This document shows, piece after piece, positions 3,804-8,753 of a DNA stretch of 64,000 bases. A model generated the notes under the pieces. It did not search any database and had not been told where the DNA came from. It was given only the letters and a program-made list of their open reading frames with translations. Positions within the stretch are counted from its first letter, which is position 1. Each line of letters starts with the position of its first letter. The position numbers and the translations under genes are program-made. This stretch comes from Burkholderiales bacterium (lineage in GTDB: Bacteria > Pseudomonadota > Gammaproteobacteria > Burkholderiales > JAEUOS01): NCBI GenBank assembly GCA_016790695.1, contig JAEUOS010000091.1, forward strand, positions 1-64,000, written 5' to 3'.

Positions 3804-5243
3804 ATGAACAGCAGGACACGCTTGACCGCGACCGCGATGGTCGCCTGGGCCGCCGCGGCGCTGCCGGCGGGACTGGCCGGAGATGTCGTGGCGCAGGCCA
3901 TCGGCGACGTCGAATACATTCGCGGTGCCGGCGCGGCCCAGCGCGCCGGCGAGCGCGCCCGCGTGCTCGGGCAGGGTTCCCCGATCGAGGCCGGCGAGGT
4001 GCTGACCACGGGCACCAACAGCTTCGCGGTCGTCAAGCTCAATGATGGCACGCGCATGACGCTGCGTCCCAATACCGCCATGAAGGTCGACGAGTTCGTG
4101 CTCGAACAGCCCGGCCGCGGCGACAACCTGGTGATGAACCTGTTGAAGGGCGGATTGCGCGTGGTCACAGGCGTGATCAGCAAGCGCACCGCGACCAGCC
4201 GGCTGGTGACCTCGACGGCGACCGTCGGCATCCGCGGCACCGATTTCGATGCGCGGATCTGCGACGTCGACTGCCGGGCGGAAGCGCGCCGGCCCGCCAC
4301 GCCGCTCGCGCAGGCCAGTGCCGCGACGGTCGTGCCGGCGACTGCGCGGGTGGTGCAGATTGCCGGGACGATGACCGCGGTCAGCGAGTCGGGCGAGCGC
4401 CGGCAGGTCGTCGCCGGCGGGCCCGCCTACCGCGGCGACACCCTCGAGACCCCGGCCGGCGCCCAGGCGATCCTGGTGTTTCGCGACGACACCCGCGTGA
4501 CGGTGGCGGCCAATACGCGGGTGCGCATCGACGAGTTCTCGTACGATGCGCGCAGCGCGGCCGACGGCAGTTTCGCCCTGGGGCTGCTCAAGGGCGGCAT
4601 CCGCGCCGTCACCGGCCTGATCGCGCGGGCGCGTCCGGCCAGCGTGCGCTTCACGACGGCCACGGCGACCGTGGGCATCCGCGGCACGGACCTGCACATG
4701 CGCTGCGAGGGCGCGGGCGCCGGGGAGCCCGGGGCGGGGGCGCCGGTCGACGGCTGCTTCATCGGCACGCTGCAGGGAGAGGTTGCGGTAACATCGCGCG
4801 CGGCGCCGGCGGAGACGGTCGTCGTGCCGGCCGGCGCCACGGCACAGGTGCTTGGCACCGATCGTCCGGCCATGCTGCTCACGGAGACGCCCGCACTCAT
4901 GCGCGACAACCCGCTGCCCAGCCCCGTGCAGGTGCCGGCGGACCTGCAGCAGCTGTTCGGCAGCGCGGCGCGCGCGGAGCCGGAAGCGGGCGACCTGTTC
5001 GTCTATCTGCGCGACGGGCATCTGTCGGCCGAAGCGGGCGGGCGCACGCTCGACATCGGGCGCGGCGAAGGCCTGTTCGTCGACGCCGCGGGACGCACGC
5101 TCGCGCGCCTGGACACGCCGCCGGCCTTCCTGGTCAACGACCCGACGCCGCGCCCCGACCGGATCGATTCGCGCGGCGCACAGCTGCTCGATCTGCAGGC
5201 GCTCGGCATGCGCACCCGCGCGAACCTGGTCTGCAAGCCTTGA
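3804..5243 (+). CDS. FecR-domain protein of the two-partner secretion locus
   Basis: 479 residues starting with a likely signal peptide (basic MNSRTR, Ala-rich core, possible cleavage near residues 25-31), so it is probably periplasmic or secreted. It carries two clear FecR domains (about 35-150 and 180-300), each ending in the same motif VGIRGTD (residues 141-147 and 290-296). A third, weaker FecR-like segment lies at about 395-440. There are paired Cys after each motif and a near-terminal CKP. FecR domains were named from the ferric-citrate signalling protein, but no sigma factor or TonB receptor gene is adjacent. Its place between the exoprotein and transporter genes suggests a role in export or surface assembly; that is inference. 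Its stop overlaps the transporter start by one base. Confidence 0.82.
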   Translation: MNSRTRLTATAMVAWAAAALPAGLAGDVVAQAIGDVEYIRGAGAAQRAGERARVLGQGSPIEAGEVLTTGTNSFAVVKLNDGTRMTLRPNTAMKVDEFVLEQPGRGDNLVMNLLKGGLRVVTGVISKRTATSRLVTSTATVGIRGTDFDARICDVDCRAEARRPATPLAQASAATVVPATARVVQIAGTMTAVSESGERRQVVAGGPAYRGDTLETPAGAQAILVFRDDTRVTVAANTRVRIDEFSYDARSAADGSFALGLLKGGIRAVTGLIARARPASVRFTTATATVGIRGTDLHMRCEGAGAGEPGAGAPVDGCFIGTLQGEVAVTSRAAPAETVVVPAGATAQVLGTDRPAMLLTETPALMRDNPLPSPVQVPADLQQLFGSAARAEPEAGDLFVYLRDGHLSAEAGGRTLDIGRGEGLFVDAAGRTLARLDTPPAFLVNDPTPRPDRIDSRGAQLLDLQALGMRTRANLVCKP

Positions 5244-6874
5244 TGGACGCTTCGCGTCCGCGTCTGCGCAGCCGGCGCGGCCGGGCCGGCGGATTGCTCC
5301 GGCGCGCGATCGCCGCCGGCGCGATCGCCGGCTGGGCGGTCGTGGCCTGGCCGCAGGATGGACCACGCTTCGACGTCTCCGGCTACCGCATCGAAGGCGA
5401 CAATCCGATCGGCGAAGCGCGCGCCCAGGCGGTGCTCGCGCCGTTCATCGGCGCCTCGATCGGACTGGACCGGCTGCAGGCCGCCGCCGAAGCGTTCGAG
5501 CGCGCTCTGCACGAGGCGGGATTCGGCTTCTTCCGGGTGATTCTGCCGCCGCAGGACACGGGCAGCGTGGTCGCGCTCAAGGTGCTGGCGTTCACGCTCG
5601 GGCGGGTCGACGTGAAGAGCGCGATGTTCTTCAGCGAGGCCAACGTGCGCGCGAGCCTGCCGGCGCTGCGCGACGGATCGAGCCCGAACACGCTGCAGCT
5701 GGCGCGGGACCTCGCGCTGGCCAACGAGAACCCGTCGAAGCGCGTGGTCGCCGCGTTCCGGCCGGGAGAAAAGCCGGACACCGTCGATGCGAGCCTCGAG
5801 GTGGCCGATTCGCGCCCGCTGGCGGGCTTCGCCCAGCTGGCGAACACCGGGACGGTTGCCACCGGCATGACCCGGCTCACCTTCGGCGCGACGCATGCGA
5901 ACCTGTTCGATCGCGACCATCAGCTGACCGCGACCTACACCGTGTCGCCGGAGCGGCTATCGCGCGTCAGGCAGTGGGGCATGTTCTACCGCGCGCCGGT
6001 CTACGGGGCCGGCGGCATGGTGTCGGGCTACTGGACGGAATCGAACGTGCAGTCCGGCAGCGCCGCCGGCGTGGCGATCACCGGCGGCGGCCGCTTCGCC
6101 GGCCTCCAATACACGCAGTATTTCGCCCCGCGCGGCGACTATCGCGACTATCTGACGGTCAGTTTCGACGACAAGCAGTTCGACAACAGCGTGCTGGTCG
6201 CCGGCATCAACGCGGGCACCTGCAACCGCATCGCGAGCCGGCCGATCAGCGCCAGCTACAGCGGCCGCTTCGAGGGAGCGAATCTCACGCTGTCATTCAA
6301 TGCGGACCTCGCGCGCAACCTGCCGGGCGGGCCGCACAACGCCCAGGCGGACTACGATCGCTGCAATCCGCCTGCCGATGCGTCACGCAACCTCTCGGCG
6401 GCCTGGGCGATCCTGCGCGCCGGCGCCGATATCGGCTGGCGCATCGCCGGGGACTGGCTCCTGGCGGGGCGCGTGCGCGTGCAGCACGCGCCGCAGGCGC
6501 TGATCGCGGGCGAGAAGTTCGGCGTCGGCGGCGCGCAGTCGGTGCGCGCGCTCGGCGAGCGCGCACTCGCCGGCGATTCCGGCGTGTCCGGCAGCGTCGA
6601 GCTGTGGTTCCCGCCGTGGTGGCAGGGCGCGCGGTGGCTCGCGTTCGTCGACCATGGACGGGTGCGCAGCATCCATCCGCCGCCGGGCGCCCTGGTGTAT
6701 GACGCGGTGTCGAGCGCCGGCTTCGGGCTGCGCTGGCAGTACCAGTCGAGCGTGAGTCTGGCGCTCGACTACGGCGTGGTGGTGCAGGGATTCGCGCCGA
6801 ACGCCAATGTCACCGGCGTGGCCAACGTGCGCGGACATGACCGGCTGCACCTGAACATGCTGGTGCGCTTCTAG
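5243..6874 (+). CDS. Two-partner secretion outer-membrane transporter (TpsB, ShlB/FhaC/HecB family)
   Basis: 543 residues. The ATG at 5243 shares its A with the TGA of the FecR gene; a TTG one codon upstream is less likely. Layout follows the family: N-terminal signal region, a POTRA_2 domain with the entry motif FDVSGYRIEGDNPI (about 34-115), a second POTRA (about 120-195), then an Omp85-type 16-strand barrel ending in an aromatic residue (LVRF). The lid-loop motif, usually VRGY, reads SVRALGE here (near residue 435), a departure at a normally conserved site. The role is translocation of the TpsA exoprotein across the outer membrane after recognition by the POTRA domains. It is the last gene of the TpsA-FecR-TpsB set and is followed by a strong hairpin. 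Confidence 0.88.
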   Translation: MDASRPRLRSRRGRAGGLLRRAIAAGAIAGWAVVAWPQDGPRFDVSGYRIEGDNPIGEARAQAVLAPFIGASIGLDRLQAAAEAFERALHEAGFGFFRVILPPQDTGSVVALKVLAFTLGRVDVKSAMFFSEANVRASLPALRDGSSPNTLQLARDLALANENPSKRVVAAFRPGEKPDTVDASLEVADSRPLAGFAQLANTGTVATGMTRLTFGATHANLFDRDHQLTATYTVSPERLSRVRQWGMFYRAPVYGAGGMVSGYWTESNVQSGSAAGVAITGGGRFAGLQYTQYFAPRGDYRDYLTVSFDDKQFDNSVLVAGINAGTCNRIASRPISASYSGRFEGANLTLSFNADLARNLPGGPHNAQADYDRCNPPADASRNLSAAWAILRAGADIGWRIAGDWLLAGRVRVQHAPQALIAGEKFGVGGAQSVRALGERALAGDSGVSGSVELWFPPWWQGARWLAFVDHGRVRSIHPPPGALVYDAVSSAGFGLRWQYQSSVSLALDYGVVVQGFAPNANVTGVANVRGHDRLHLNMLVRF

Positions 6875-6997: not shown

Positions 6998-7879
<882 letters not shown>

Positions 7880-7984
7880 CGCGAAGTTCTCCTCTCGTAA
7901 GTGTCGGCGTCACCGGCTGGTGGCCGGCTGCTGCGCACGGAACCCGGGGTCGGGTTTCGTCCCGTTACGAACTCTCAATGCATT

Positions 7985-8011
7985 TTAGCACTCTCGTCCT
8001 AAGAGTGCTAA
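7985..8011 (-). promoter_or_regulatory. CIRCE operator (HrcA site) over the rpoH promoter
   Basis: TTAGCACTC (7985-7993) and GAGTGCTAA (8003-8011) with a 9-base spacer match the CIRCE consensus at every arm position. Read on the minus strand, the element overlaps a plausible sigma-70 promoter: TTAGCA as -35 inside the first arm, an 18-base spacer, and an extended -10 TGCTAAAAT running out of the second arm. HrcA binding would therefore block polymerase directly. It points away from mraZ and towards rpoH. Confidence 0.93.
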
Positions 8012-8195
8012 TCGCGCCGCAAGTTCCCCGGCACGGGGTATCCGGTCCAGACATGTATGTTTGTACACGTTAATCGTCAGAGGTCACATGAATAAACTGG
8101 AAGTAGATAATTGTTTTGTAAGAGAATTATCTTCTTCATCCTGCGAGGAGGCGATGCTAAGTCATTGTCTTGATTGAAAAAAACCGGAAATGCCC
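8012..8195. other. AT-rich rpoH-mraZ intergenic island
   Basis: Most of this stretch, particularly 8050-8190, is far richer in A+T than anything around it. It holds no recognised gene. A 29-codon reading frame, ATG 8088 to TGA 8177, is preceded by AGAGG at 8079-8083 and is described as a finding. The remainder of the gap contains the mraZ promoter and operator (from 8196) and the mraZ leader up to 8324. Confidence 0.5.
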
Positions 8196-8224
8196 TTGCA
8201 ATTGCCGGAATGATGCTCTAGAGT
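8196..8224 (+). promoter_or_regulatory. Sigma-70 promoter of the mraZ/dcw operon
   Basis: TTGCAA (8196-8201) and TAGAGT (8219-8224) are separated by exactly 17 bases. The -10 abuts the MraZ-type direct repeats, and the predicted transcript start lies within them, about 95 bases before the mraZ GTG codon. Confidence 0.6.
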
Positions 8225-8248
8225 GGGAGAATGTAGGAAAAAGTGGTA
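8224..8248 (+). promoter_or_regulatory. MraZ operator (three direct repeats)
   Basis: TGGGA (8224-8228), TAGGA (8234-8238) and TGGTA (8244-8248) recur at exactly 10-base intervals, one per helical turn. E. coli MraZ binds TGGGN repeats with this spacing upstream of its own gene. The position just after the -10 fits autorepression. The second and third repeats are each one base off TGGGN. Confidence 0.7.
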
Positions 8249-8324
8249 AAAACTCCCAAAACCGACCCTGGCGAGCCGGCTCTTGCCGGCGGGATCGGGG
8301 TGTCGGACAGCGAGGCAGGCAAAG

Positions 8325-8753
8325 GTGTTTCAAGGAGGGGCCAATCTCAGCCTGGATGCGAAGGGGCGCATGAGCGTTCCGGCGCGCCATCGCGACGTCC
8401 TGCAATTGCAGTGCGAGGGACGGCTCACCCTGACCAAGCACCCCCACGGTTGTCTCCTGCTGTTCCCGCGCCCGGTGTGGGAGGGCTTTCGCGAAAAGCT
8501 CGCCGCCCTGCCGATGGAGGCGCGCGCATGGCAGCGCATCTTTCTGGGCAGCGCTGCCGATGTCGAACTCGACGGCGCGGGTCGCCTGCTGATCGCGCCC
8601 GAACTGCGCGCCGCCGCGCAGTTGACCAAGGATGTCACGCTGCTCGGCATGGGCAGTCACCTGGAGATCTGGGATTCGGCACTGCTCGCGCAGAAGGAGG
8701 CCGAAGCCATCGCCCAGGGCATGCCCGAGGCGATTGCCGGGTTCTCGTTCTAG
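8325..8753 (+). CDS. mraZ: Transcriptional regulator MraZ
   Basis: 142 residues from the GTG at 8325; the product begins [15 protein letters not shown], matching the family N-terminus. The frame stays open further upstream, but that part resembles no MraZ. Two SpoVT/AbrB-like halves carry the paired motifs [14 protein letters not shown] (about 9-22) and [14 protein letters not shown] (about 81-94), which bind the TGGG-type repeats upstream. MraZ represses its own operon in E. coli. It is the first gene of the dcw operon and is 12 bases from rsmH. Confidence 0.95.

Follow-up and report, generated by a model that had tools for sequence, protein, structure and literature searches.

The heat-shock sigma factor gene rpoH in the 64,000-nucleotide stretch of DNA analysed here (the window) is preceded by a CIRCE element. 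The best explanation, with a probability of about 0.87, is that an HrcA operator controls rpoH, the right operator arm forming the extended -10 of a sigma-70 promoter, the left arm holding its -35, and a putative sigma-E promoter lying just upstream with its -10 in the left arm. The operator is genuine and strongly conserved; its kind is already known, and the fused register and the spread are the less expected part. The features concerned, in window coordinates, are as follows.

6998..7879, minus strand: rpoH, sigma-32, 293 aa, the likely target (TIGR02392, NF005143)
7982..7990, minus strand: extended -10 TGCTAAAAT, of which six bases close the right CIRCE arm and three lie beyond it (scan and alignment)
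7985..8011, minus strand (palindromic, given on the rpoH strand): CIRCE operator, predicted HrcA site, 18/18 to consensus, recurring before rpoH
8000..8004, minus strand: putative sigma-E-type -10, TCTTA, beginning within the left CIRCE arm (motif scan)
8006..8011, minus strand: -35-like hexamer TTAGCA, within the left CIRCE arm (promoter consensus scan)
8021..8027, minus strand: putative sigma-E-type -35, GGAACTT, P3-like (exact match, 16-nt spacer)
8325..8753, plus strand: mraZ, divergent neighbour and unlikely target (TIGR00242; GTG start inferred within the open reading frame 8283-8753)

The operator at 7985-8011 reads TTAGCACTC-TCGTCCTAA-GAGTGCTAA, and the minus strand 5′ of rpoH runs GGAACTTGCGGCGCGA-TTAGCACTC-TTAGGACGA-GAGTGCTAA-AATGC, with the operator 105 bp from rpoH on its upstream side. 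A preliminary description had placed a perfect CIRCE at exactly this position, with a -35 inside the operator and an overlap with an extended -10; all 18 arm positions match the consensus, and both promoter elements were recovered by an independent consensus scan and by promoter alignment. The site is the only CIRCE at ≤3 mismatches in the window (mean of 0.01 such sites over 100 dinucleotide-shuffled versions), and also the only one in the source genome (5.49 Mb, 228 contigs, 90.9% complete), in which a reversed-pattern control gave 0. A chance match was ruled out by the shuffles, the genome control, and the recurrence of the site before rpoH in relatives. The identity of rpoH is supported by a TIGR02392 score of 399.8 bits, against an equivalog cut-off of 323.1, and by an NF005143 score of 419 bits. 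Absence of an hrcA gene would have refuted the preliminary description, but a search of the source genome recovered a single HrcA (contig C168, PF01628, 219 bits) in a complete open reading frame of 378 aa with both the C-terminal domain and a winged-helix DNA-binding domain (PF03444, 24.2 bits). An RpoE equivalog is encoded as well (315.5 bits, cut-off 236). The arms (TTAGCACTC-N9-GAGTGCTAA), the hrcA gene in the same genome, and the position in the promoter of a heat-shock gene (rpoH) are those of a CIRCE/HrcA operator.

The same arrangement recurred widely. Among 80 named betaproteobacterial loci, a CIRCE with ≤2 mismatches was found within 400 bp upstream of rpoH at 78, 64 of them perfect; the sole loci without one were those of Nitrosospira sp. 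Nl5 (L075) and Nitrosovibrio sp. Nv17 (L109). Other genomes of the same order carried it (≤2 mismatches) at 48 of 57 loci (56 genomes), and the reversed pattern had at least 6 mismatches at every named and order locus except one (L035, 2 mismatches). Beyond the order, 39 of 60 genomes of the wider class had a CIRCE (≤3 mismatches) before rpoH; rpoH was found in 62 of the 66 genomes in the class set, the source genome included, one genome (G118) was left out because its match was cut at a contig end, and the two rpoH genes each of G050 and G091 were merged in per-genome counts. In G050 both rpoH genes carry a CIRCE, and in G091 one of the two does. The suggestion that the site is a lineage feature of betaproteobacteria was thus borne out and has to be widened to other members of the class. 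The comparison also makes it very likely that rpoH is under the HrcA repressor, as had been proposed; the simple two-tier cascade proposed with it does not hold, as set out below.

Promoters were aligned on the CIRCE for 127 rpoH genes with ≤2 mismatches (78 named, 48 from the order, and the window), of which 125 entered the column counts after identical segments and flanks shorter than 45 bases were dropped; the dropped rows are apparently L137, identical to L034, and L089. In the window, the consensus scan of the minus strand gave a -35 of TTAGCA (8011-8006), an 18-nt spacer, and a -10 of TAAAAT (7987-7982) preceded by TG, and two promoter-like sites were found in 7860-8345 where 0.2 were expected. 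Past the right arm, all 125 rpoH promoters have T as the third base and 112 have A as the second, so that the right arm followed by WAT spells TGCTAAWAT, an extended -10. In the wider class this T is present in 37 of 39 rpoH promoters, whereas among the matches listed it is found at only 5 of the order's 34 groESL operators (Fisher 5e-27 against rpoH). The arms themselves diverge in a corresponding manner: position 3 of the left arm is off consensus in 25 of 125 rpoH sites, 24 of these being G, which gives TTGGCA and brings the hexamer nearer to the -35 sequence TTGACA, and its partner in the right arm, the first T of the -10, is never off consensus (0/125). At groESL the bias is opposite, with one variant at left-arm position 3 and six at its partner among the 34 loci in the matches listed (Fisher 8e-6), and TTGGCA occurs at 1 of those 34 sites versus 24 of 125 for rpoH. 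HrcA should read both arms alike, yet the rpoH arms are unequally constrained, the asymmetry that would arise if, at rpoH alone, the left arm served as a -35 and the right arm as a -10. A fixed register of this kind predicts that changes to operator bases not used by the promoter would derepress rpoH, and that the outer T would be needed for transcription. In one genome (G069, locus L230), two CIRCE plus extended -10 units stand in tandem 5′ of rpoH; the outer copy is degenerate, and the layout looks like a duplication of the whole promoter-operator.

A further input, absent from the preliminary description, is suggested by a sigma-E promoter motif on the rpoH operator. GGAACTT followed after 15-17 nt by TCNNA, the sigma-E promoter motif of the rpoH P3 type, was found (≤1 mismatch in GGAACTT) upstream of the CIRCE or running into it in 73 of the 125 rpoH promoters, whereas 100 shuffles averaged 1.16 and never exceeded 4; the GGAACTT motif by itself was present in 94 of 125, against a shuffle mean of 21.7. 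The commonest start, 16 bases before the CIRCE as in the window, was shared by 27 of the 125 promoters (≤1 mismatch) and by 15 of the 39 wider-class promoters, and other starts lay 31 bases (11 promoters) or 12 bases (12 promoters) before it. Sequence, spacing, and an rpoE gene in the genome all agree with a sigma-E promoter, which is regarded as putative. The Escherichia coli counterpart reads TGAACTT-N16-TCTGA (NC_000913), known as the sigma-E promoter P3, compared with GGAACTT-N16-TCTTA in the window. E. coli differs from the window in having no CIRCE ahead of rpoH (the best match has 7 mismatches over 400 bp, and 8 over the 244 bp immediately upstream of the start codon) and from the source genome in having no hrcA (control genome list).

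HrcA activity is supported by GroEL in Bacillus subtilis, and in other bacteria HrcA loses activity on heating or when unfolded protein occupies GroEL. Most likely, HrcA would block RNA polymerase at rpoH: a dimer on the operator would cover both the sigma-70 and the sigma-E elements and hold rpoH low, and heat, or the engagement of GroEL with unfolded protein, would inactivate HrcA and derepress rpoH, so that sigma-32 would rise and drive the chaperone genes. The groESL operon would then receive both signals, with GroEL feeding back on HrcA. Among the matches listed, 46 CIRCE loci of the order were classified, 12 before rpoH, 34 before groESL, and no others. At the 34 groESL loci in those matches, operator and repressor are as at rpoH, and a conserved CCnTAT block directly precedes the CIRCE, in the manner of a sigma-32 -10, which puts the operator right after a sigma-32-like -10 (CCCTAT) and over the expected start; the base invariant at rpoH is free there (T in 5 of 34). 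In genomes sharing the genus and family of the source (G001-G004), groESL likewise carries a CIRCE (loci L181, L182, L026, and L180). The simple two-tier cascade is therefore not borne out, since groESL has a CIRCE of its own in the nearest relatives, and the presence of the operator at both rpoH and the groESL of relatives points instead to a coherent feed-forward loop. If this is true, two heat-shock systems often called parallel would be wired both in series and in parallel.

The loop is drawn from relatives because the groESL operator of the source genome itself is invisible: its assembly yielded no groES match, and its second groEL is represented only by an end fragment at a contig edge (C132:5-139). 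The view that a single genomic CIRCE is a biological peculiarity was rejected on the same grounds, and the lone CIRCE is probably an assembly effect. A full-length groEL is present elsewhere in the assembly (G000:C215:35765-37333; L032, L171), with an alanine dehydrogenase/PNT gene as its divergent neighbour. Neither a groES open reading frame nor a CIRCE at ≤7 mismatches was recognised near this groEL, and it may be a specialised second chaperonin.

The alternative that fares best grants that HrcA tunes rpoH and supposes that the heat induction of sigma-32 is mainly post-transcriptional, through an RNA thermosensor and DnaK/FtsH, in the manner of E. coli, where sigma-32 control of this kind is established. 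It is considered rather unlikely, although a real contender; the 336-nt 5′ mRNA was predicted to fold no more stably than its shuffles (z -0.38), a result from one sequence that weighs little either way and so speaks neither for nor against the preliminary description's proposal that HrcA control stands in place of the E. coli RNA thermosensor. The textbook account of sigma-32 control comes from E. coli, which is without hrcA. Should HrcA occupy the rpoH promoter in the majority of relatives with an hrcA gene, the scheme of E. coli would be one variant and not the rule. A class-wide version of the preferred reading can be offered tentatively, at somewhat less than even odds: across betaproteobacterial and many gammaproteobacterial lineages that keep hrcA, the HrcA operator itself would be the vegetative extended -10, in many of them with a sigma-E -10 inside or beside it, and HrcA would gate both, so that the E. 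coli arrangement of P3 without CIRCE plus a thermosensor would be a derived state that arose once hrcA was lost, P3 being what survived.

The rpoH operator was distributed much as hrcA was. Over the order and class together, a CIRCE preceded rpoH in 82 of 88 genomes with hrcA versus 5 of 29 without. For the order, the source genome included, the figures were 47 of 50 versus 1 of 7 (Fisher 1.5e-5, ignoring relatedness), and for the class 35 of 38 versus 4 of 22 (Fisher 7.9e-9, ignoring relatedness); the class counts (35/3/4/18) omit the source genome and E. coli and merge the G091 genes, and become 36/4/4/19 with those included. A sign test on the RpoH tree, which takes relatedness into account, gave 5 supported independent pairs, a mean of 3.7 agreeing and none opposing, with a median p of 0.125 and low power, the tree of 118 rows having 12 of 115 inner branches well supported and a midpoint root only, which gives no ground for calling the state ancestral; the direction is consistent with CIRCE presence following hrcA but not proven. 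Six genomes with hrcA had no rpoH CIRCE at ≤3 mismatches, namely G012 and G029, which have 4-mismatch sites, and G031, G072, G085, and G096, in the last of which only the right half, AGAGTGCTAAAAT, is left of the element. Absence of the rpoH CIRCE from G031, which has hrcA, and from L075 and L109 may mark a lineage that removed rpoH from HrcA control.

These exceptions bear on a second alternative, that the element persists solely as a strong promoter (TTAGCA-18-TGCTAAAAT) for which HrcA no longer matters. Such a reading would suit the half-site of G096, as well as the five genomes that retain the CIRCE although no hrcA was found in them (G002, G064, G075, G092, and G097); however, four of these five assemblies, all but that of G075, are incomplete (<87%). 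Against it, moreover, arm positions not needed by the -35 or -10 are conserved, with CACTC and GAGTG near invariant, and the site has been lost in 24 of the 29 genomes without hrcA, one of which (G037) still shows a 5-mismatch remnant where the site normally lies before rpoH. Maintenance as a promoter alone is accordingly improbable, and control of rpoH by HrcA is the reading retained.

With respect to earlier work, a 2003 study by Permina and Gelfand reportedly treats, by its title, the HrcA/CIRCE and sigma-32 regulons of this lineage; CIRCE sites ahead of rpoH may already be among those it lists. Within the scope of our literature search, to which subscription papers and regulon databases did not belong, no report of a CIRCE before rpoH other than PMC545781 was found, and none of a fused extended -10. 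A CIRCE before rpoH is thus already in print for Geobacter sulfurreducens, where, according to the accessible part of that paper, a perfect TTAGCACTC-N9-GAGTGCTAA precedes rpoH and control by HrcA was predicted (PMC545781, Table 8). Geobacter belongs to another phylum, the site there is given at -51 from the start codon, and the accessible part of the paper describes no promoter register or sigma-E input (PMC545781).

Lastly, an operator acting on the divergent mraZ/dcw cluster and not on rpoH is the most improbable alternative, for although the palindrome sits in the gap common to both genes, it lies 105 bp from rpoH versus 313 bp from mraZ, the promoter fused to it points toward rpoH, and the two genes are neighbours at only 1 of the 80 named loci, at 3 of 30 from the order, and at 1 of 30 from the class, where the single case is the window, so that the CIRCE tracks rpoH whatever its neighbour and rpoH is the target to be expected. 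On the other side of rpoH and convergent with it, window positions 3804-6874 encode a FecR-domain protein and, after it, a two-partner secretion transporter of the ShlB/FhaC type. Before mraZ, at 8223-8252, three 10-bp near-repeats were observed (GTGGGAGAAT/GTAGGAAAAA/GTGGTAAAAA), which resemble MraZ self-regulation boxes.
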